The notes under the pieces were generated by a model. It was not told where the DNA came from, did no database searches, and saw only the letters and a list, made by a program, of their open reading frames with translations. A stretch of 64,000 nt of DNA from Methanolinea sp. (lineage in GTDB: Archaea; Halobacteriota; Methanomicrobia; Methanomicrobiales; Methanospirillaceae), in assembly GCA_030055515.1 (NCBI GenBank), contig JASFYI010000005.1, forward strand, positions 33,029 through 97,028. Reading direction: 5' to 3'. Made by a program: the position numbers and the translations under genes. This document shows, in pieces, positions 442 to 11,804 of the stretch (position 1 is the stretch's first letter; every line of letters begins with the position of its first letter).

Positions 442-891
442 ATGAAAATAAGAAAGTGCCTCATACTCATCGGTATAATCCTGACCGTGGGTATCGCCGT
501 TGCAGACTACATTCCTCCCTACTGCAATGCGTATGACTTTGGAAGCTCGTTTACAGGTTCGCAAGTATCGATGGTCACCACAACGAGCGAGAGGAATGTT
601 GCATCATGTGCCGATTCCATGAAAAATGTCGATTACAGTGTTAGCCTCTCGGGAATCGGTTCTGCCTCTTCGTGGGTGAATGCGTATTCCCTCGGAGGAA
701 AGACGGGATATACCTTCGACAAGATCAGGAACATGCTAGGATCATACTCGCCGGCATTCTGGAATCCGGATCTGGGGACAGGGACACCCGGCAATGGCTT
801 CATGCAGGTGAACGAGCTCGCATACAGCGAGAAGACCACGGCATCGGGGATCATCCAGTCATTCAGCAAGGTAATAAGCATCCAGTGCTGA
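442..891 (+). CDS. Small secreted protein, paralogue of the C-terminal half of the protein at 5116-6042
   Basis: This is a 149-residue protein with a clear signal peptide (MKIRK followed by a hydrophobic stretch ending near ADYIPP). The mature part aligns along its whole length with the C-terminal ~125 residues of the protein at 5116-6042: shared blocks are GSSFTGS, MVTT, DYSVSLSG, GFMQ, and KTTASG/RTTASG. It lacks the N-terminal domain of that paralogue. The start was chosen at 442 because of the RBS-like AAGGATGTGA just upstream and the TATA box at 388. Three mature cysteines are present, including the final residue. The function is unknown; an exported beta-rich protein is the most that can be said. 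Its spacers are AT-richer than the window as a whole. Confidence 0.8.
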   Translation: MKIRKCLILIGIILTVGIAVADYIPPYCNAYDFGSSFTGSQVSMVTTTSERNVASCADSMKNVDYSVSLSGIGSASSWVNAYSLGGKTGYTFDKIRNMLGSYSPAFWNPDLGTGTPGNGFMQVNELAYSEKTTASGIIQSFSKVISIQC

Positions 892-916
892 TTTTTTTTC
901 ACGGAAATTATTTTTT
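892..916 (+). terminator. T-rich terminator after 442-891
   Basis: Eight Ts (892-899) follow the stop codon directly and six more lie at 911-916. Oligo-T tracts are the normal intrinsic termination signal in archaea. Confidence 0.6.
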
Positions 917-1167
917 ACCTAATATTAACCTTAGAATCCGTCAATCAAAAAAATTTATGATTTGATCCTCGCCGGGAATCAATGGAGAGTGTAACACCAC
1001 TCCTTGAGGATTCCAAAAAAAGCGTACCATTTTTTCATCACCAGATGAAATCCAGTCAGGATACATCTCCATTCCCCTCCTGCATGATTTTTTCAAGATC
1101 GGGCTTGTGAATGTTCCTTTCATTTTTGCGATCCCATGAAGAAATGCTCCTTTCTGCGTTTCCCACT

Positions 1168-1172
1168 AAAAA
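1168..1172 (-). terminator. Putative terminator of the caspase-like gene
   Basis: Read on the minus strand this is a T5 tract (GTTTTTAG) about 25 nt after the stop codon of the 1195-4272 gene. It is short, so support is moderate. Confidence 0.35.
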
Positions 1173-1194
1173 CAAGTTTCGGAGAGATTACTCC

Positions 1195-4100
1195 TCAATT
1201 TCGGCTATAAAATGGTGGATTCTCCGGTGATTCATGTGTTTCGGAGATGATGTAGGAACCGGAGCCAGAATATGCGTGGACCATCACGTAGTACCTCCCG
1301 GAGCTCGGGGACTGGATGGTGATCGACTCGGAGGAGAAGCCCCTCCTCGCGCTCGCGTAGTGGTACGATGTAAGAGTCGGGTACTCCCCTCGCTTCACGT
1401 ACATGTCGAAATCGGCGATGTAAGACGGCCCCGTGAGGGTGATCCTGCAATAACCGCTCGTCCCGTAGGGGATGTCGAAGTAATAGTACGCCTTCTCGCC
1501 CGTCGACGTGAAACGACCGTACTCTGTCTTCTGCGTGATCGACATCGGGACCTGGGGTGTCTGGGTTGGCAGAGTCGTCGGGGGAGTCGTGGGGCGGGTG
1601 GTCGGGGGTGTCGTGGGGGAACTGGTCGGACGCGGTGTCGGAGGGGTCGTGGTGACTGGTATGGTCGTGGGACGGGTGGTCACCGATCCGTGCGTCTCCG
1701 AGATCGTGTAGGAACCGTAGCCGGTGAAAGAATATACCATCACGTAGTACCGCCCGGGTGCAGGGTTCTGGATCGTGACCGTCTCGTAGGACGTCCCTAC
1801 GTTACCACTCCCATAATCGTACGAGGTGAGAGTTGGGAGATCCCCCCTCCTCACGTAGAGGGAGAAATCGCCTCGAAGCCCTATAGGGCCTTGGAGAGTG
1901 ACAGTGCAACTCGTAACACCTATGGGGATGTCAAAGGAGTAATAGGCCCTGTCTCCAGAAAAAGCGAGGTATCCTTGAACGGATTTGAGGGTGATGTCCG
2001 TTGCGGAGACCTGTGTCGGAGTTGGCTGGGTAGTCGGCGGAGTTGTGGGTGGCGTGGTCGGCGTGGGCGTCGGGGTCGGCGTGGGTGTGGGAGTTGCCAC
2101 AGTGTGTGTCTCAGAGATCGTGTAGGAGCCGGAACCGGAATAAGAACGGACCATCACGTAATACCTCCCCGCGGCCGGATTCTGGATCGTGACTGTCTCA
2201 TAGGAAGTTCCCCACCTGCTGCTCGCGTAGTCATACCATGACACCGTGGGGTAGTCCCCCCTCCTCACGTAGAGGTCGAAGTCCGCCCTTGACGAGGGTC
2301 CTGAAAGGGTCACAGTGCACGTCCTCGTCCCGGATGGAATATCAAAGTAATAGTATGCCTGTTGGCCGGACGTTGTGAATTGTCCCTGAACGGTCTGCAT
2401 CGTGATCGGGGTGGCGGGAATCGGTGTCGGGGTCGGCTGGGTAGTCGGCGGAGGTGTGGGTGGCGTGGTCGGCGTGGGCGTCGGGGTCGGCGTGGGTGTG
2501 GGAGTTGCCACAGTGTGTGTCTCAGAGATCGTGTAGGAGCCGGAACCGGAATAAGAACGGACCATCACGTAGTACCGCCCTGCTTGGGGATTCTGGATCG
2601 TGACCGCTTCCTGGGAAGTCCCCCGCCTGCTGCTCGCGTAGTCATACCATGACACCGTGGGGTAGTCCCCCCTCCTCACGTAGAGGTCGAAGTCCGCCCC
2701 TGACGAGGGTCCTGAAAGCGTCACAGTGCACGTCCGCGTATTGGAGGGAATGTCGAAGTAGTAGTATGCCTGCTGGCCGGGGGACGTAAACCCACCCTGT
2801 ATTGCCCGCAGCGTGATGGAGGTAACGGAACCGGGAGTCGGAGTCGGCTGGGTGGTGGTCGGCTGCGTCGTGGGCCTGGTCGTCGGCGTCGTGGTCGGCG
2901 CGGGTGTGGCTGTCGTGTGCGTCTCCGAGATCGTGTAGGAGCCGGAACCGGAGTACGCATAGACCATCACGTAGTACCTGCCCGCGACCGGATTCTGGAT
3001 TGTGACCGTCTCCGATGCGGTCGAGCCCGTGCCCGCATAATCATACGACGAGGTCGTCGGATACTCCCCCTTCCTCACGTAGAGGTCGAAGTCCGCCCCT
3101 GACGAAGGGCCTGACAGGCTCACAGTGCACGTCCTCGTCCCGGAGGGAATGTCGAAGTAGTAGTATGCCTGCTGGTAGGGAGACGTGAACCGCCCCTGTA
3201 CTGTCTGCATCGTGATTGAAATAGCACTCGGAACGAGTGGTACGAGGTCGACTTCGTTTGACGGGTCAGCATCGTAGATCTGGGGCTCGAACAGGTCTTT
3301 CCTGTTTGCGACCTGCCAGTTGTGCAATTCCCTTTTCGCGTAGTAAAACGCTTCCTCTGCCGAGATCCAGTTGTTCCTGTTCGTGTCTGCCGACGGACTA
3401 TTGAATCCCTCCACTAAAAAGTACGTGAATCCCCCGTTCTGGAGGAGGTAGTATTCTGTCGAGGATTCCGTGTCCTTCGTTGCCATTAGGATGAGGAACT
3501 TCCTCATCGAGAAAGAGTCCCTCGTCGATGCATCGCTGGCCGAGGTCGTGGAGGAGGAACTCCGCATGAAATCATCTGCAAAACCATCCTCAATGCCCGC
3601 GACCTGTGATTTGACGATACCGGGGCTTCCCTTCACCATCCCACCGCTCTTGCACGAGTCAAAGATAGCGACGATGTTCTTCGCATTTATTCCGCCCAGG
3701 AGGTATGCGAGCTCGTCGTCGCTTATCTCGCTTGACCAGTCGTAACCATCCCGCGAATCGTAGGGGCAGATGTACTCGTCGTAGCCGTCACTCTCGTCAC
3801 GGTCGTAGTCGGGCATTCCCGTGTTCCCGTGACCGGAGAAGTAAAAGACGACGATACTCCTCGAATTCGTCCTCGACTTGACGTAGTTTACCGTGCTGAA
3901 GATGTTTGACTTCGTCGCCTGTGCATTAGTGAGGGTCACGATGTTACTCTCCCTGAAGTTACACTTCCTCACCAGCACGTCCTTCATGTCCACGACGTCG
4001 TTTAGCGCGTAGTTCAGGCTGGGGTTGATATCCTCGTACTTGTACGTGTTTATCCCGATGAGAATGGCCCAGTTGTCTTCGTCCGCGGCACATGCAGGGA

Positions 4101-4272
4101 GGCAGGGGAGTGAGAACAGGAACAGGAGAACGAGAGTAAGAATTGACTTGTTGATCCCCTGCGAGCGACATGGCTTTAATTTTTTTCTTTTCGCTCCATC
4201 CGATATTGTGACTGACCCATAGGTAATTCCCTCTTTCGTTCTCCTTTGGAAAATGTGGAAAATAGAAATCAC
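1195..4272 (-). CDS. Secreted caspase-like (C14) protease with five C-terminal PPC domains
   Basis: Signal-type hydrophobic segment at about residues 43-62, then a caspase-fold domain (about 66-340). The catalytic dyad is visible: His148 in YFSGHG and Cys207 in FDSCKSGG. Five pre-peptidase C-terminal (PPC) beta domains follow, each starting near an Ile-Thr and containing FDLYV or FDMYV and GRYYVMV, separated by Thr-Pro linkers. Such proteins act outside the cell, and PPC domains usually aid secretion, folding or surface binding. C14 relatives outside animals commonly cleave after Arg or Lys; specificity here is unknown. The only in-frame start is a GTG at 4272, giving an unusual ~42-residue extension before the hydrophobic core. 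A TATA-like CTTATTCG on the minus strand near 4297-4304 would fit a leaderless GTG, but a frameshift-dependent ATG start at 4220 is an alternative (see findings). Confidence 0.85.
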   Translation of the reverse strand: MISIFHIFQRRTKEGITYGSVTISDGAKRKKLKPCRSQGINKSILTLVLLFLFSLPCLPACAADEDNWAILIGINTYKYEDINPSLNYALNDVVDMKDVLVRKCNFRESNIVTLTNAQATKSNIFSTVNYVKSRTNSRSIVVFYFSGHGNTGMPDYDRDESDGYDEYICPYDSRDGYDWSSEISDDELAYLLGGINAKNIVAIFDSCKSGGMVKGSPGIVKSQVAGIEDGFADDFMRSSSSTTSASDASTRDSFSMRKFLILMATKDTESSTEYYLLQNGGFTYFLVEGFNSPSADTNRNNWISAEEAFYYAKRELHNWQVANRKDLFEPQIYDADPSNEVDLVPLVPSAISITMQTVQGRFTSPYQQAYYYFDIPSGTRTCTVSLSGPSSGADFDLYVRKGEYPTTSSYDYAGTGSTASETVTIQNPVAGRYYVMVYAYSGSGSYTISETHTTATPAPTTTPTTRPTTQPTTTQPTPTPGSVTSITLRAIQGGFTSPGQQAYYYFDIPSNTRTCTVTLSGPSSGADFDLYVRRGDYPTVSWYDYASSRRGTSQEAVTIQNPQAGRYYVMVRSYSGSGSYTISETHTVATPTPTPTPTPTPTTPPTPPPTTQPTPTPIPATPITMQTVQGQFTTSGQQAYYYFDIPSGTRTCTVTLSGPSSRADFDLYVRRGDYPTVSWYDYASSRWGTSYETVTIQNPAAGRYYVMVRSYSGSGSYTISETHTVATPTPTPTPTPTPTTPPTTPPTTQPTPTQVSATDITLKSVQGYLAFSGDRAYYSFDIPIGVTSCTVTLQGPIGLRGDFSLYVRRGDLPTLTSYDYGSGNVGTSYETVTIQNPAPGRYYVMVYSFTGYGSYTISETHGSVTTRPTTIPVTTTPPTPRPTSSPTTPPTTRPTTPPTTLPTQTPQVPMSITQKTEYGRFTSTGEKAYYYFDIPYGTSGYCRITLTGPSYIADFDMYVKRGEYPTLTSYHYASARRGFSSESITIQSPSSGRYYVMVHAYSGSGSYIISETHESPENPPFYSRN
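2044..2571 (-). repeat. Recently duplicated PPC module inside the protease gene (411-bp period)
   Basis: Bases 2044-2160 match 2455-2571 exactly (117 nt), with further strong similarity on both sides. The period of 411 bp equals 137 codons, one PPC domain plus its Thr-Pro linker. The other PPC modules are more diverged at DNA level, so the middle pair looks like the newest duplication. Confidence 0.85.
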
Positions 4273-4363
4273 TTGATCACCTTAGTATCACTCGAATAAG
4301 GATTGCCGAAAACGCGCAATAAACATTTCCTTCACGCTTGGATACCTAATTCTAACGAGGAAT

Positions 4364-4373
4364 ACTTATATAG
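4364..4373 (+). promoter_or_regulatory. TATA box for the small peptide gene at 4395
   Basis: ACTTATATAG lies within an AT-rich stretch; its centre is about 26 nt before the GTG at 4395. This predicts a leaderless or almost leaderless transcript. Confidence 0.6.
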
Positions 4374-4394
4374 ATCACGGGTTATGGTTATTTT

Positions 4395-4610
4395 GTGAGA
4401 AAAATGAAACGAGTGTGGGTTATTGCCATCTGCATACTCCTCGTGTTTTCCCTCCTCATTGTAACGTCGACTGCAGCGACCGTGAAAGTATCAAAAACTT
4501 CCGGGAGTTCGAAGAGTTTCTCGTCTTCGAAATACACGGGAAAAACGTTTTCGAAGATTACATCCTCCAAGTTTTACTCATCTCGTTTCAACTGTCCGTT
4601 CTGCGGATAG
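4395..4610 (+). CDS. Tiny exported Lys/Ser-rich peptide ending in CPFCG
   Basis: A 71-residue product: a basic start (MRKMKRVW), a hydrophobic core ending around STAA, then a mature part of about 43 residues made largely of Ser, Lys, Thr, Phe and Tyr, with repeated SSK/SFSSSK-like motifs. It closes with CPFCG. It has no acidic residues in the mature part, so it is strongly cationic. No family recognised. The CxxC at the extreme C-terminus could bind metal, form a disulfide or be a modification site. A GTG at 4395 fits the TATA spacing; ATG at 4404 is the alternative start. It lies divergently next to the secreted caspase-like protease, which makes a substrate or partner relationship possible but unproven. 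Confidence 0.65.
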   Translation: MRKMKRVWVIAICILLVFSLLIVTSTAATVKVSKTSGSSKSFSSSKYTGKTFSKITSSKFYSSRFNCPFCG

Positions 4611-5115
4611 CAACGAACCCCTCCTTTTTACAGTATTCAAATTGGCTTTATCGCATCAATGCGACTGCATTACTTGAAGTCGCCCCGGATTAATGAAACT
4701 AAAAATATTCTGGGAATATCGCTCCAGTCCTGTAGGCCATATCCACTCTCCCGCGGGCATTTTTCCCGAATCACATGTCTCATGCCGGCTTGCCCTTAAA
4801 CCCGGGCCAAATGTTGTTCGTTAATTTTTGCCGTCCGCTGCCTCCCGTGACCATCGGAGAACAGAATTGGTCGCGAACGGATGCATTGCCGTGACATTGC
4901 GTGGAGGAGAAAGTCTTGTCGCGACAAATTTCTCAAAACCATTCGATTATCCCCGTGTAGAAATGCACTACCATCCCACAATCCTCACTTACTTTTTTTG
5001 ACCACGAGAGTATTTCCATTTCCGCGCACCTGACAATAAGTAGCCTTTTATGCCTCCAGAACCAACAGTTTCTCTATTGCTGGGAGTATCGCAATTCACT
5101 CAAAGGAGATGGTCG
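4611..5115. other. 505-bp spacer, possibly holding a non-coding transcript
   Basis: No supported protein gene. There is a T-tract at about 4623-4627 (end of the peptide gene), an AAAATATTC TATA-like element near 4702-4710, and a T7 tract at 4993-4999, which together could bracket a transcript of roughly 260 nt. Inside it, two imperfect ~35-nt direct repeats share CCGTGAC and GTCGCGA blocks. A pyrimidine-rich TAGCCTTTTATG near 5041-5051 may be the promoter of the gene at 5116. No tRNA or known riboswitch fold was recognised. Confidence 0.3.
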
Positions 5116-6042
5116 ATGAAGATTTCGAGGTTTTTTCCTGTTCTCCTGTTCCTCTGCTTCGCGGGATATGCCCTCGCGGACGATCCCGTGGGTGCGACCC
5201 GGCAGACGCAGGGGATCACCACCGTGACCCACGTCGTCGTCTACGGGACGTTCACCGACAGCGTGGAGGCCGTCTGGGTGACGTCGAACCAGGACGTGAG
5301 GAACAATCCCCCGCTCAACGAGTACGCCGACGAGGTCACCGTGGATGGAGCGGGCAGGCTTGCCCCGACCGGAAACAGGAACTGGACACCCGAACGGCAG
5401 GCGACGATGTCCTACAGCGAACAGACACTCGCGGACAACGGGTACATAGAGTGGGACAAGACCGTGAGCCTCGACACCGGGGACAAGATCGCAAACCAGG
5501 ACAACTTCAGGACGGTGACGCACTTCGACTTCGTCTCCGCCGAGGACGCGTACGGGAGGGCAACCTTCTCCGAGAGCCTCCTCCTCGATTCCGCGAGCAT
5601 GGGATCGGGGGCGGGGTCACGCATGATGTGCCCGTGGGGGACCGGTGACAGCGGGTTCATCCCGGCGTACTGCAACATCGTCGAGATGGGGAGCTCGTTT
5701 ACCGGCTCCCGCGTGACGATGGTCACGACAGCGGGCGAGCGCCACGTCTCTGCCTCCGCGGACGTTCCCGCCGGGATGGACTACTCCGTCAGCCTCTCGG
5801 GGGTCGGGTCTGCCGCAGCCTGGATCAACGCGCACATCATGGAGGGCAGGACGCCGTCCGTCTTTGCGAATGTCGCGAACGGCGCGGGGAGGACCGACTA
5901 CGTCTTCTGGAACGGGGACATGGGGGACTACGGCTTCATGCAGGGCGTCGACCTCGTCTACAAGGAGAGGACGACCGCGTCCGGCGTCATCGCCTCGTTT
6001 GCGAAGGCGATGAGCTACCAGTCGGGCATGCGGAGGCTCTGA
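5116..6042 (+). CDS. Secreted two-part protein of unknown function
   Basis: A 308-residue protein with a signal peptide (MKISRFF...ALADD). The N-terminal ~160 residues of the mature protein (motifs THVVVYGTFTDS, TMSYSEQT, FSESLLLDSA) look like an all-beta domain. The C-terminal ~125 residues are the domain shared with the small secreted protein at 442-891 (GSSFTGS, DYSVSLSG, GFMQ, RTTASGV). The start at 5116 was chosen because AAAGGAGATGG sits 5-15 nt upstream and the signal peptide follows directly; the upstream in-frame ATG at 5050 would bury the signal. It is followed by a T6 tract near 6062-6067. Probably an exported, lineage-specific protein; the biological role cannot be read from the sequence. 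Confidence 0.8.
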   Translation: MKISRFFPVLLFLCFAGYALADDPVGATRQTQGITTVTHVVVYGTFTDSVEAVWVTSNQDVRNNPPLNEYADEVTVDGAGRLAPTGNRNWTPERQATMSYSEQTLADNGYIEWDKTVSLDTGDKIANQDNFRTVTHFDFVSAEDAYGRATFSESLLLDSASMGSGAGSRMMCPWGTGDSGFIPAYCNIVEMGSSFTGSRVTMVTTAGERHVSASADVPAGMDYSVSLSGVGSAAAWINAHIMEGRTPSVFANVANGAGRTDYVFWNGDMGDYGFMQGVDLVYKERTTASGVIASFAKAMSYQSGMRRL

Positions 6043-6135: not shown

Positions 6136-8115
6136 ATGCAACGGAGTGCCTGCCTGTTCCTCGTTGTCCTTATTCTCGCCGCCACCCTGATCGCTGCGTG
6201 CACCACGACTCCCCCCGCCCATGTCTCCATCGAGAAGGCGAGGGAACTCGCAAAGCAGGGAGACCTCGAGGGGTCCCTTGCCGTGTACGATGCCGTCGTC
6301 GCCGCCAATGGAAACGACAGTGCCGCGTGGCGGGAGAGAGGGGAGGTCCTCCGCGCGATGGGAAGGGACGAGGAGGCGCTCCGGTCGCTCGAAAGATCCC
6401 TCGCTCTCGACCCGTCCGAGGCCGGCGCGTGGGTCGTGCTCGGGGATATTTTCCTCGGGATGAACAGGACAACCGACGCCTTCCGCGCCTACGACCGTGC
6501 CATCGTCACCGATGCGAATACAACGATGGCATGGGTCGGCGTCGGCCGCGTCTTCGCACTCGAGGGGAGGAACGAGGATGCCCGGAAGGCGTTCCTCATG
6601 GCACTCAGGACGAACAGGTCCCACGCGCCGGCCGCAAAAGCTCTCGGTGACGTCCTCGTCGCCCTCAGGGAGTATGACAACGGCCTCCGGGCATACGAAG
6701 AAGCCCTCTCGCTCGATCCCCTCTACGCGGATGCAGCCGTTGCCAAGGGTGACCTGCTCTCGCAGTTCAGGAAGTTCGAGGAGGCGCTCTCGGCCTACGA
6801 CACCGCCCTTGAAGTCTCTCCCAACGACACCGCAGTCCTCGGCAGGAAGGCGTTCGTCCTCTCCGCGATGGGCCGGCACGACGACGCGATCGCCCTCTAC
6901 GACAGGATGATCGCGATCTCCCCCGGGAACGCGACGTTCCTTGCGTACAAGAGTTACGCCCTCAACTCTGCCGGCCGGTTCAACGAGTCGATAGAGGCCG
7001 CTGACCGGGCAACGGCGCTCGATCCCGGAAACGCCGTCGCGTGGAACAACAAGGGTTTCGCGTTGAGCGCCCTCGGGCGGCTCGACGAGTCGCTCGCCGC
7101 GTACACGAAGGCCGTCGAGCTGGACCCGAAAAACGCCGCGGCCCTCACCAACAGGGGCTACGTCCTGCTCACCCTCGGCCGGTACGGGGACGCGGTCGCG
7201 GACTTCGACCGGGCGATCGGTCTCCAGCCGAACTACTCCGCGGCCCTCTCCTACAGGGCGCTCGCGCACCTCCGGCAGGGGCAGTTCGAGAGTGCCCTCT
7301 CGGACGCGACGCGCGCCGCGACAATTGACCCGAAGAACGCGGGGGCGTGGACCACGGGCGGGAGGGCCCTCCTCGAGAAGGGGCAGTTCCGCAACGCCAC
7401 CACGTACTTCGATAGAGCCCTCCAGGCAAACCCGAACGCCCCTGACAGCTGGCTCCAGAAGGGGATCGCGCTCTTCATGGAGAGGATGTACGAGGACGCC
7501 ATCACCGCATTCGACAGGGTGCTCGCCCTCGCTCCCGGGAACCTGCAGGCATGGCAGTACAAGGTCTCCTCGCTCGTCAGGCTCGGGAGGGGGGAAGAGG
7601 CTGTGCGGGTCACCGACCGTGCACTCAAGACCGACCCGTGGAACACGACCCTCCTCCTCCGGAAGGCGAGCGCGCTCGTCCTCCTGAACCGCCCGGGCGA
7701 GGCGGACCTCGCCCTCTCCCGCATCCTCGAGAAGGACCCTGAAAACTACGACGCCCTCGTGATGAGGGGCACGATCCAGCTTTCTGCCAACGATTACCTC
7801 GGCGCCATAAAGACCTTCGAGGGTCTCCAGCAGTCAGGCCGTGACACCGACGAGTCTTTCGTGTACCTCGGTATCGCGTACTACCGGTCGGGGCAGTACG
7901 AGAAAGCCCTCGCCGTGTACGACAGGCTCCTCGAGCGGTACCCCGCGAGTTCCGTCACGTGGTCCAACAGGGGCTACGCGCTCGCGAAGCTCGGGAGGAT
8001 TCAGGACGCGATCAAATCCTTCGACCGCGCGCTCGCGCTCGACCCCTCGAATACCGACGCGAGGATCGGGAGGTACGAGGCGATGCGGATCCTCTGGCCT
8101 TCCTACAGGCCGTAG
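6136..8115 (+). CDS. TPR-repeat lipoprotein
   Basis: 659 residues. The N-terminus is a lipoprotein-type signal (hydrophobic core, then IAAC with Cys22), so the protein is probably lipid-anchored on the outer face of the membrane. From about residue 30 to the end it is an unbroken series of about 18 tetratricopeptide repeats of 34 residues, recognisable by recurring A-W-x-x-x-G, Y-x-x-A-L/I-x-x-Y/F-D-x-A-L and L-D-P-x-N motifs. TPR solenoids bind partner proteins; no enzymatic domain is present. The gene has its own promoter and its 3' end overlaps the convergent thiL gene by 13 nt. Its partner is unknown. Confidence 0.9.
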   Translation: MQRSACLFLVVLILAATLIAACTTTPPAHVSIEKARELAKQGDLEGSLAVYDAVVAANGNDSAAWRERGEVLRAMGRDEEALRSLERSLALDPSEAGAWVVLGDIFLGMNRTTDAFRAYDRAIVTDANTTMAWVGVGRVFALEGRNEDARKAFLMALRTNRSHAPAAKALGDVLVALREYDNGLRAYEEALSLDPLYADAAVAKGDLLSQFRKFEEALSAYDTALEVSPNDTAVLGRKAFVLSAMGRHDDAIALYDRMIAISPGNATFLAYKSYALNSAGRFNESIEAADRATALDPGNAVAWNNKGFALSALGRLDESLAAYTKAVELDPKNAAALTNRGYVLLTLGRYGDAVADFDRAIGLQPNYSAALSYRALAHLRQGQFESALSDATRAATIDPKNAGAWTTGGRALLEKGQFRNATTYFDRALQANPNAPDSWLQKGIALFMERMYEDAITAFDRVLALAPGNLQAWQYKVSSLVRLGRGEEAVRVTDRALKTDPWNTTLLLRKASALVLLNRPGEADLALSRILEKDPENYDALVMRGTIQLSANDYLGAIKTFEGLQQSGRDTDESFVYLGIAYYRSGQYEKALAVYDRLLERYPASSVTWSNRGYALAKLGRIQDAIKSFDRALALDPSNTDARIGRYEAMRILWPSYRP

Positions 8116-8981
8116 GGGGGATCCCCGTCCCACCGGTGCCGGAATCCCGCAATTTCTGCCGGGCGGCCGTCGACGAGGATCACCGGCTCGTCGGTCACGC
8201 GTCCGATCACGAACAGCTCCGGGATCTCCGGGAGAGGGGTGCCCGGGGGCGCGGTGAAGAGGAGCCCGTAGTCCCCCCCTCCCTCGAGGGCAAACCGCCG
8301 CGCCTCGTCCCGCGGGACCCCGAGGAGCGGGGGGATCCTCCCGGTCTCGATCGCGTACCCCCTCCCGCTCGCCTCCCGCATGTCGCCGAGCGAGGCAAGC
8401 AGCCCGTCCGACACGTCCATCATGGAGGTGACCCCCGCCTCCGCGAGTCTCCGGCCCTCGGCCACGCGGGGCCGCGGGGTGCAGAGGAACGGCCGGAACG
8501 CGGCGTACCCCTCAAGCGCCGCCTGCGCCCGCCCGGGGACCCCGACGATCCCCACGATGTCGCCGGGCCGCGCCCCCGATCTCCGGACCGGCCGGTCCGC
8601 AAAACCTACCCCTGCGCTCACGAGCGTGAGTTCCCGGTGGGCGTCGAGGTCGCCCCCCGCGAGGACCGCGCCGTGCTCCCCGCAGCAGTCGCGGGCGCCC
8701 GCGATGATCCCCGCGAGCCGCTGCGGCCGATCCAGCCCCACGGCGAGGAGGACGATTGCGGGCTGCGCGCCCATCGCGGCGATGTCGGAGAGCGTGACCG
8801 CGGCCGCCATCCACCCTATCTCGCGGTCCGTCATCCCGGCGGGAAAGTCCGTGCTCTCGTGGAGCATGTCGGTCGTCGCGACGAGGAACCGCCCGCGGTC
8901 GGGGAGGACAGCGCAGTCGTCGAGGACCGCGTCCCTCCCGATGAGGGAGGCGACGACCTCCCGCAGCGCACGCTCATCCAA
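8103..8981 (-). CDS. thiL: Thiamine-monophosphate kinase
   Basis: 292 residues, normal length for ThiL, which phosphorylates thiamine monophosphate to the diphosphate with ATP. Signature elements of the PurM/ThiL fold are present: DDCAVL near residue 21, TTDMLHESTDF with its metal-binding Asp, WMAAAVTLSDIAAMGA, the AGGDL block, SMMDVSDGLL and a GGGDYGLLF segment near the C-terminus. The start overlaps the end of the DUF460 gene by 8 nt, and the order RIO2-DUF460-ThiL on one strand indicates an operon. It meets the TPR gene tail to tail. Confidence 0.92.
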   Translation of the reverse strand: MDERALREVVASLIGRDAVLDDCAVLPDRGRFLVATTDMLHESTDFPAGMTDREIGWMAAAVTLSDIAAMGAQPAIVLLAVGLDRPQRLAGIIAGARDCCGEHGAVLAGGDLDAHRELTLVSAGVGFADRPVRRSGARPGDIVGIVGVPGRAQAALEGYAAFRPFLCTPRPRVAEGRRLAEAGVTSMMDVSDGLLASLGDMREASGRGYAIETGRIPPLLGVPRDEARRFALEGGGDYGLLFTAPPGTPLPEIPELFVIGRVTDEPVILVDGRPAEIAGFRHRWDGDPPYGL

Positions 8982-10950
8982 CCTTCTTCATCTCCCTTCC
9001 CCGCTCGGTGCGGTACTCCTCGAAGATCTTCATCAGAAGCTCTCCCTTCTTCTCGCGCTCGTACCGCTCCTGTGCCTCCCTCCACTCCCGCATGGCCTCG
9101 TGGAACTGGGAAGGGTCCGCGGCCCCTATCTTCCCCTTCACGACGGCGCGGACAGCCCGCGTGGAGAGGACCGGGACCGAGAGATCCCGCAGGATCTCCT
9201 CTACCTCGCGGAACGCCGTCTCTTCCTCCCCTGCCTCGACGAGGAGCGCCCCGATCCCCGCCTCGGCGAGTTCGCGGAGGGCAACCTTGCCGAACCCTTC
9301 CAGTTTCCGGACATAGAGGACGTCGCCCTCCCTGATCCCCATCTCCGCGACGAGGGATCGCACCCCCTCCCTTGTGAGCGAGGGGAGGATCTTGAGCGGG
9401 ATCGTCTCGCCCGAGAGGAGGGCCTCGTCGAACTCCTTCATCTTCTGGATCCTCTTTAGGAGCCTCCTGTTCTCCTTCTCCCCGGTGCGGAGCTTCTTCT
9501 TCAGGTTCTCGATGATCGCGTCCCTCTTCGTGATCTCGGCGTCCGACCGGATCTTCTGGTCCCGGCGCGACCGCAGCCTCTTTAACCGGGCCTCGAGCCT
9601 CGCGATCTGGACGTCCCTCTTCCGGAGGTCTTCCTGGAGCTCGGCGACGATGGCCCGGAGCCTCTTGACCGTGCCCTCGAGGATGCGCACCCTCTCGTCC
9701 CGGGCCTCGTCCGCCCTCTCCCCCGGCTCGCCCGTCGCTTCCGCCGCGGGTGCCCCCGGGGGTGCGGGGAGCTCCCTCCCGGCCATCTCCCCGATGACCT
9801 GCTCGAGCGACTGCCCCCGCAGGATCCGCGCCCTCACCTCGTCGACGTCGAACCCCGGCGGGATCCTCTTGCCGAGGTTCTGGAACTTGTTCCGGTACGC
9901 CCTGTACGCCTCGAGCGCCGCGGCGAGGGCATCGCGCTCGTGGTCGTTCCTCGTGGAATACCCCTGCGTGAGGGCCTGCTTTGCCTCGACGCTCATGTCC
10001 GACCTCGGGGTGTAGGCGATCCCGTTGAAGGCCCTGCGGATCTTCTCCACGGAGAACGGCATCTCGCTCACGTCGGACGCGACGATGAGGGGTTTTCCGA
10101 TGCGGGTGAGCGCCTCGATCACGCCCGGCATCGACATCTGGCGCGAGCTCTCGAGGTGGAGGAGGTTCCCGTCGAGGTCGAGCGCGGCGACCGCGGTCGT
10201 CGTGCCCGGGTCGATGCCCACGATGAGGTATTTTGGCCGCGCCTGGAGGGGGCGGAACCGGATCCTGTCGAGCCTTTTGCCATGGATCCGGACCTGGACG
10301 TCCGCGCCCCGGGATGCGGAGACCGGGATCTCCTCCCGCGGGGCCTGTACCGTGAAGGAGACCCTGCTGCAGCCGCCGAACGCCCGCGTCTCCCTCTTCT
10401 CGTACTTCAGCCCCGCGGAGAGGAGTGCCATCTCGATCTCCCGCGCCTTCTGCAGCACCGCCCCGTGGATCTTCCTGCAGTACCTGTTCTGGCTCCACCC
10501 CCCCTTCCCCGGCGACCTGTGCCGGGAGACGACGATCTCGCTCTCGTTCTCGAACGCGATCACCTCGCAGCCGGCGCCCATCGCCGCGACGCGCGCGATC
10601 GCCCTCGCCTCGTCGAAGGGATCGAACCTGTTGACGCTGATGTTGTACCTGCTCGCGACCTTCGGGAGCGATTCCTTCCTCTCTCCCCCCGTCACCTGGA
10701 CGAGCCTGACCGAGGGGGGGAGCATCTGGAGGAACGAGAAGACGTCCCGCGCGTCCGCGGCGACCTCCTGGACGCTGTCGACCGCGAGGATGTCGGGCTT
10801 CTCCTGCGCAAGCCTCCGGAAGAGCCGGAATGCCGTCACCTCGGTCTCCTCCACGATATCGTTGCCCGAGAGGACGACGAGCGCATACCGCGGCCTCTGC
10901 GACCGCGAGCGCACCGAGCCCGTGATGACGTCGATCCCGAAGACCTTCAT
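8974..10950 (-). CDS. DUF460 protein, RNase H-like fold (predicted nucleic-acid enzyme)
   Basis: 658 residues, beginning MKVFGIDV. Two RNase H-like segments are seen: the N-terminal part and a second at about residues 240-390 with VGIDPGTTTAVAALDLDG, a typical first beta-strand with the metal-binding Asp. A long charged coiled coil follows (about 430-530, many Arg/Lys/Glu heptads, KRLRAIV, LRKRDVQ), then a small alpha/beta C-terminal domain. This archaeal family has no firmly established function; a role in RNA or DNA processing is the usual prediction. The start was placed at 10950, where ATGA overlaps the stop codon of the RIO2 gene. Longer in-frame extensions upstream would run through RIO2. 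Confidence 0.85.
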   Translation of the reverse strand: MKVFGIDVITGSVRSRSQRPRYALVVLSGNDIVEETEVTAFRLFRRLAQEKPDILAVDSVQEVAADARDVFSFLQMLPPSVRLVQVTGGERKESLPKVASRYNISVNRFDPFDEARAIARVAAMGAGCEVIAFENESEIVVSRHRSPGKGGWSQNRYCRKIHGAVLQKAREIEMALLSAGLKYEKRETRAFGGCSRVSFTVQAPREEIPVSASRGADVQVRIHGKRLDRIRFRPLQARPKYLIVGIDPGTTTAVAALDLDGNLLHLESSRQMSMPGVIEALTRIGKPLIVASDVSEMPFSVEKIRRAFNGIAYTPRSDMSVEAKQALTQGYSTRNDHERDALAAALEAYRAYRNKFQNLGKRIPPGFDVDEVRARILRGQSLEQVIGEMAGRELPAPPGAPAAEATGEPGERADEARDERVRILEGTVKRLRAIVAELQEDLRKRDVQIARLEARLKRLRSRRDQKIRSDAEITKRDAIIENLKKKLRTGEKENRRLLKRIQKMKEFDEALLSGETIPLKILPSLTREGVRSLVAEMGIREGDVLYVRKLEGFGKVALRELAEAGIGALLVEAGEEETAFREVEEILRDLSVPVLSTRAVRAVVKGKIGAADPSQFHEAMREWREAQERYEREKKGELLMKIFEEYRTERGREMKKVG

Positions 10951-11804
10951 CCCGTCACCCTCGCGACCTCCGCGGAGACGTCCGCCGAGACACCGTACTT
11001 GCGCCCGAAGTACCGGACGATCTGGGAGATGTCGCGGGCGAGGATCTCGTCCGCGTTCGGGTGGTCCGTCGTGACCCACTGGGGCCAGTCGATCAGGACG
11101 ACGCCCCTCCCGTCGAGCATCACGTTGAACTCCGAGAGGTCCGCGTGGATGACGCCGCGGGAGTACGCGGCGGTAACCTGCCCGAGGATCTCGGCGAGGA
11201 CCCGGGCGGGCTCTTCCACCGCCGTCCTGTGGAGGAGAGTCCCGTCGATGTACTCCATCACGACGACGCCCCGGTTCTGGTCGACCGGGAACGGGACCCT
11301 CACGTGCGGGTGGAGCCTCCGGAGGGCCTCGTACTCGCGCTCGGCGGACGCCCTCGAGGCGAAGACCCACGGGCAGTGGGACCTCCCGGCGATGTAGTCA
11401 CGCGCGACCCGGATCGACTGGAACGACCTCTGCCCCACGTGGTGGCACTTGACCGCGACACGCGAGAGGCTCACCCCCTCGTACACGACCGACTCCTTTC
11501 CCTCCCCCACGGGCGGGCCGAGGGCCGAGAGGCTCCCCCTCCGCGTGAGGGCGAGGAGGGCGAGGGCATCGTACCCGGCAAACGTGAGGCTGTACCCCTC
11601 GTAGGGGACGACGTCGTACTTCACGAGCCCCTTCTCCATCAGGGTCCCGAGCCTGTACCGCGTCTCGTTCTCGGAGAGCCCGGCCTTCTTCCGGAGCAAG
11701 TCGAGCGGGACCCACGAGTGGAATGCCATCAGCCTCTCGATCGCCTGGAGGACGCGCGCCTCGTAGGGGTGGAGCTGCCGCACCGTCTCGGCAGAAAGGG
11801 GCAT
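10947..11804 (-). CDS. rio2: RIO2-type serine/threonine protein kinase
   Basis: 285 residues, usual length for archaeal RIO2, an atypical kinase/ATPase that acts in maturation of the small ribosomal subunit. An N-terminal winged-helix domain (about 1-85) is followed by the RIO kinase domain: the GEGKESVVYEG phosphate-binding loop, the ATP-binding Lys in AVKCH (Lys119), the catalytic loop VIHADLSEFN (Asp222) and the metal-binding Asp239 in LIDWPQWV. It is the first gene of a minus-strand operon with the DUF460 gene and thiL, and is transcribed divergently from the tRNA thiolase gene across a short palindromic promoter. Confidence 0.95.
   Translation of the reverse strand: MPLSAETVRQLHPYEARVLQAIERLMAFHSWVPLDLLRKKAGLSENETRYRLGTLMEKGLVKYDVVPYEGYSLTFAGYDALALLALTRRGSLSALGPPVGEGKESVVYEGVSLSRVAVKCHHVGQRSFQSIRVARDYIAGRSHCPWVFASRASAEREYEALRRLHPHVRVPFPVDQNRGVVVMEYIDGTLLHRTAVEEPARVLAEILGQVTAAYSRGVIHADLSEFNVMLDGRGVVLIDWPQWVTTDHPNADEILARDISQIVRYFGRKYGVSADVSAEVARVTG

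Follow-up and report, generated by a model that had tools for sequence, protein, structure and literature searches.

Probable archaeal cell sheath subunit genes in a Methanolinea genome: a conserved cluster and a hairpin leader of sheath genes

The analysed window is a stretch of 64,000 nucleotides, C5:33029-97028, of the 1.76-Mb genome of Methanolinea sp. Its left part contains four genes singled out in an earlier note, all of which were found at the positions given for them (442-891, 1195-4272, 4395-4610, and 5116-6042). The products of all four carry an N-terminal hydrophobic, signal-like segment, as judged by hydropathy only. The claim that these genes lie among AT-richer spacers was borne out: the spacers have a GC content of 37-47%, compared to 67% for the window as a whole, and a TATA-like sequence could be seen by eye upstream of each gene. 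The second and third genes diverge from a single TATA-like palindrome near position 4366 (also by eye). The features considered here, including those that lie just left of the window, are as follows.

C5:31245-31296 (L006:11246-11297), 1.8 kb left of the window: canonical 5' leader before the P0007 gene
C5:31297-32247, just left of the window: third, full-length paralogue, P0007
2..304, + strand: 3' end of rep50, the gene of an exported repeat protein with 50-aa repeats of ~16-17-aa YxDxF..P units; the gene starts left of the window, at C5:32607
442..891, + strand: half-core SH protein P0001, 149 aa, with a signal peptide and the C-terminal three of six long core strands, as aligned to P0002
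1195..4272, - strand: secreted caspase-like protease of the C14 type (Peptidase_C14, E 1e-17) that has five PPC domains and is absent from the cluster in relatives
4395..4610, + strand: cationic exported peptide, 71 aa, with 12 K/R and zero D/E
5076..5115, + strand: degenerate SH 5' leader before the P0002 gene, reading ATTGC-tgggagtatc-GCAAT and then a ribosome-binding site
5116..6042, + strand: full-length SH sheath protein P0002, 308 aa, with both candidate disulfide cysteines (172 and 186)
6136..8115, + strand: TPR-repeat, lipoprotein-like protein; in relatives, too, its gene comes directly after the SH cluster
8103..8981, - strand: flanking gene, ThiL/AIR-synthase-like by eye, conserved in position in relatives
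8974..11370, - strand: flanking gene, conserved in position in relatives

The two exported paralogues reported previously are indeed related: P0001 aligns with residues 181-302 of P0002, and 51% of the residues are identical in this 126-residue alignment (E 6e-41). Sequence searches of Pfam, NCBIfam, and the PDB with the paralogues returned no match, and the shared domain had been described as unknown. This description no longer holds, since the domain belongs to the SH/MspA family of archaeal sheath subunits, the sheath being an amyloid-like tube that encloses cell chains of methane-producing archaea. The SH/MspA sheath protein of M. hungatei is Mhun_2271, WP_011449234.1 (PMC6242892, PMC10593813). 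In M. hungatei JF-1 (genome G024), there is a protein of 377 aa and 40.5 kDa that carries D43, T86, S144, N157, C257, C271, and K363; because these residues and the mass agree with those published for SH, we took this protein to be M. hungatei SH. It was matched at E 3e-51 by a profile built without Methanospirillum, while P0002 alone matched it by blastp at E 5e-13 and 21% identity. A profile-profile comparison (hhalign) extended over the whole length (probability 98.8%, E 6e-17). In these alignments, the C257/C271 cysteine pair of M. hungatei SH corresponds to C172/C186 of P0002 and to C174/C188 of P0007. The N-terminal signal peptide expected of an SH protein was recognized from hydropathy and alignment only.

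The structure prediction suggested for the shared domain was carried out with P0002. The model (mean pLDDT 76, with core strands mostly at 82-97) contains six strands of ~25 residues each, and these predicted strands fit the published core of two six-stranded sheets. A Foldseek search of the PDB and of viral models gave no match, the top entries being long-stranded pore proteins with TM <0.25; the fold match rests, therefore, on published descriptions. When SH was compared with itself by profile to look for an internal repeat, 27 columns aligned, with a probability of 4.7%. In summary, the Methanolinea proteins resemble M. hungatei SH in profile and pairwise homology, signal peptide, two conserved cysteines, predicted long-stranded beta core, and presence in multiple copies. 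They differ in that M. hungatei SH has a large helical cap between strands 1 and 2, whereas P0002 has ~35 residues there; in P0001, the N-terminal half is missing.

A profile search revealed SH-like genes in 53 of 100 genomes of the family, belonging to 13 of 17 genera, with up to 42 copies per genome and about 530 matches in total. None was found in the g4, g5 (large, Methanoregula-like), g6, and g11 genomes searched. This fits the published distribution, in which Methanolinea and Methanospirillum have SH and Methanoregula lacks it; the named contigs of the window's genus come from Methanolinea-type metagenome-assembled genomes. Since groups in a tree of the SH core were resolved only in part, strict orthology of SH copies is not claimed. 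M. hungatei JF-1 itself has more divergent SH paralogues (L079, L091), among them a short form of 141 aa that neighbours a paralogue of 314 aa; a short SH beside a long one thus occurs in Methanospirillum too.

Upstream of P0007, of many other SH genes, and of the M. hungatei sheath gene, a common leader was found. It has the layout GTTGATGCTGAGAGTATCAGCATRAAATGTAGGAGG, which consists of a 7-bp hairpin with a GAGUA loop (AUGCUGA-GAGUA-UCAGCAU, about 38 nt upstream of the start codon) and, between it and the start codon, a ribosome-binding site. In its canonical form, the leader folds strongly. A TATA-like peak is located about 30 nt upstream of the stem, from which transcription would be expected to start 4-6 nt ahead of the hairpin. 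An SH mRNA with this leader would begin with the 7-bp hairpin and its GAGUA loop at the expected 5' end, continue with AUGUAGGAGG, and reach the start codon.

A covariance model of the leader gave 104 matches at E 0.001, distributed over 43 of the 100 family genomes. All 43 are SH-positive, and no match at this threshold was found in the 47 SH-negative genomes. An SH gene lies directly downstream in 81 of the 84 matches checked, and the other three precede SH-like signal-peptide starts that are truncated by the end of the contig. Of the family's SH genes, only about one in five carries a leader (about 104 leaders versus about 530 SH matches). When 295 genomes of the phylum were searched, only four weak matches were found outside the family, all inside one conserved reading frame which, by eye, resembles a thiolase C-terminus; these were read as chance matches. 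No Rfam family scored above its gathering threshold, the best being freshwater-2 RNA (RF02980), whose 17.9 bits (E-value 1.4) lie below the gathering score of 49.9 and do not amount to a match. The archaeal sheath literature that we found, outside subscription journals, does not mention the leader, nor does the accessible part of the survey by Medvedeva et al. (2024, PMC11576556). The P0007 leader scores 66 bits and is among the model's best, while the copy at 5076-5115 received no covariance-model score and shows no significant fold (z +0.6). The sole SH gene of M. hungatei with a leader match is that of the main sheath protein; in published data, it is the most transcribed SH gene.

The hairpin could, in principle, act as DNA, i.e., as an operator palindrome at the promoter that is bound by a transcription factor. 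Its sequence is palindromic, and the expected transcription start is close by. In the aligned leaders, five of the seven pairs changed on both sides; rows of the first alignment had been picked by eye and were therefore biased, and the analysis was repeated with 76 distinct matches of the model, aligned by fitting them to it. With either choice of rows (by eye or model-fitted), base pairs were kept through compensatory change, as is expected of a cis-regulatory RNA. Three features speak against an operator. G-U pairs are frequent among stem variants (UG 8 and GU 7 at two pairs), which favours RNA over a DNA operator but does not prove it. The GAGUA loop is conserved in 43 of the 76 distinct rows although it is unpaired, and the distance between the hairpin and the start codon is nearly fixed. 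We therefore consider a DNA operator unlikely. From its sequence, its covariation, and its exclusive linkage to SH genes, we conclude that SH mRNAs of this family commonly start with a dedicated leader.

The gene order around the SH genes is also conserved. In Methanolinea-type relatives, a methyltransferase-like gene is followed by one or more SH genes, the exported repeat protein gene, a half-length SH gene, a long SH gene, the TPR gene, and the two flanking genes. Homologues of rep50 were found only in this genus, in 9 of 13 genomes, and they lie within the SH cluster in all but one of them (G070). In the exceptional genome, the rep50 homologue (L141:9396-9776, G070:C105) has no SH gene within 9 kb and contains an N-gap of its own. 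In the genome studied here, an assembly N-gap adjoining the left edge of the window breaks the rep50 gene: a run of ~98 N at C5:32931-33028 (L006:12932-13029), within the 150-bp tandem repeats of the gene, marks a scaffold gap. Since this gap falls in the repeats, the repeat number of rep50 in this genome is uncertain.

The published surveys of archaeal sheaths consulted here give neither assembly or plug factors nor a conserved gene context. The presence of SH in Methanolinea, the clustering of its genes, short cap-less forms, and the loss in Methanoregula were already reported by Medvedeva et al. (2024), but a conserved genomic context was not found there; here, a conserved order that includes the exported repeat protein and the half-length SH is seen in the Methanolinea-type genus. 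The cluster parts and the leader are what is new; the proteins themselves add members to a family already known.

A difference between this genome and its relatives is found between the half-length and the long SH genes, which are about 0.1-0.35 kb apart in relatives and 4.2 kb apart here, with the protease and peptide genes in between. The protease has the Pfam Peptidase_C14 domain and retains both catalytic motifs, SGHG with the His (146) and DSC with the Cys (205), and in domain and catalytic motifs it resembles prokaryotic caspase homologues (PF00656) with PPC domains; it differs from them in its location, a C14 protease inside the SH cluster being found only in this genome. A family search showed that the peptide is restricted to this genome except for two weak matches. 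Its C-terminus, FNCPFCG, contains a CxxC pair, which is unusual in a short basic exported peptide. No convincing repeats were found flanking the protease insert.

The earlier note had combined the paralogues, the protease, and the peptide into one extracellular processing or defence system, in which the protease might cleave the paralogues. The adjacency of these genes in this genome, the export of all the products, and the intact catalytic motifs of the protease agree with such a system, but Methanolinea-type relatives have the same SH cluster with neither the protease nor the peptide in it. C14 homologues are present in 11 of the 100 family genomes, and all 11 also have SH; at the level of genera, all six C14-positive ones fall among the 13 SH-positive of 17 with a chance of about 0.14, so that this co-occurrence is uninformative. 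In the stretches examined, which include several short contigs, C14 homologues elsewhere do not adjoin SH genes, and beyond this genome only two were found within about 15 kb of one, in G030 (13 kb) and G034 (9 kb). The protease is thus not kept beside SH across genomes, and this is largely the outcome named in the earlier note as one that would refute its reading. The G030 contig contains another SH cluster (L133, G030:C44:23051-27752; L132), with the C14 protease ~13 kb off on the same contig. We consider a single system improbable, and a defence or processing reading centred on the protease fails with it, the cluster order being conserved in the absence of both genes. Given this order, the rarity of C14 genes near SH, and the private nature of the peptide, the protease and peptide genes are best read, on sequence grounds, as a lineage-specific insertion into the SH cluster. 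The suggestion of a lineage-specific set of genes therefore stands for the protease and the peptide and falls for the paralogues.

The half-length P0001 might be viewed not as a functional part but as a decaying duplicate. The N-terminal half is missing from it, as is the first conserved cysteine; it keeps only the second of the two disulfide candidates and sits on a long branch of the tree. Its own structure model is of low confidence (pLDDT 66), and the half-core reading therefore rests on the alignment with P0002. However, P0001 is an intact open reading frame with a signal peptide and occupies the same position in relatives, and dN/dS among half-SH orthologues at this position is 0.02-0.21 where computable, which argues against decay. 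We put the chance of decay as low; at the level of codon changes, P0001 shows the signature of a gene retained under purifying selection. There is hardly any likelihood that the genes are virus-derived SH-like proteins serving a known egress strategy instead of host sheath genes: viruses that infect sheathed archaea are known to have short SH-like proteins without a cap, but the cluster keeps its position among housekeeping-type genes in relatives, and a search of viral contigs and phage records, of limited sensitivity, found no relative, be it a viral contig or a phage protein.

Thus, we regard it as highly probable that the paralogues are archaeal cell sheath subunits of the SH/MspA family, and that the region represents the right-hand portion of a conserved Methanolinea-type sheath cluster into which the protease and peptide genes were inserted in this lineage. 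Of the three options offered previously, surface assembly was the correct one. A sheath function in this organism would be expected from the sequence homology. By analogy with the M. hungatei sheath, P0002 and P0007 would most likely be exported by their signal peptides and fold into two six-stranded sheets; the SH units would stack edge to edge into rings, and the rings would be cross-linked through the two conserved cysteines. The half-length SH may extend or end a ring edge, as a cap, a filler, or a plug adaptor, and the repeat protein encoded between SH genes is a candidate accessory, e.g., a plug or a linker. The most likely effect of the leader would be to stabilise the mRNA, or to raise the translation, of a very abundant structural protein.

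For the making of archaeal sheaths, the conserved cluster provides concrete candidates: the half-length SH, the exported repeat protein, and the TPR protein. On balance, we favour the view that sheath genes of one family, including those of Methanospirillum and Methanolinea, share an SH-only hairpin leader at the 5' end of their mRNAs that serves as a sheath-specific control or stabilising element, and that the Methanolinea-type cluster adds two candidate accessory parts, the half-length SH and the exported repeat protein, parts of a kind missing from the results of earlier context searches. The SH-only leader provides a sequence marker for main sheath genes and makes the control of their expression testable.
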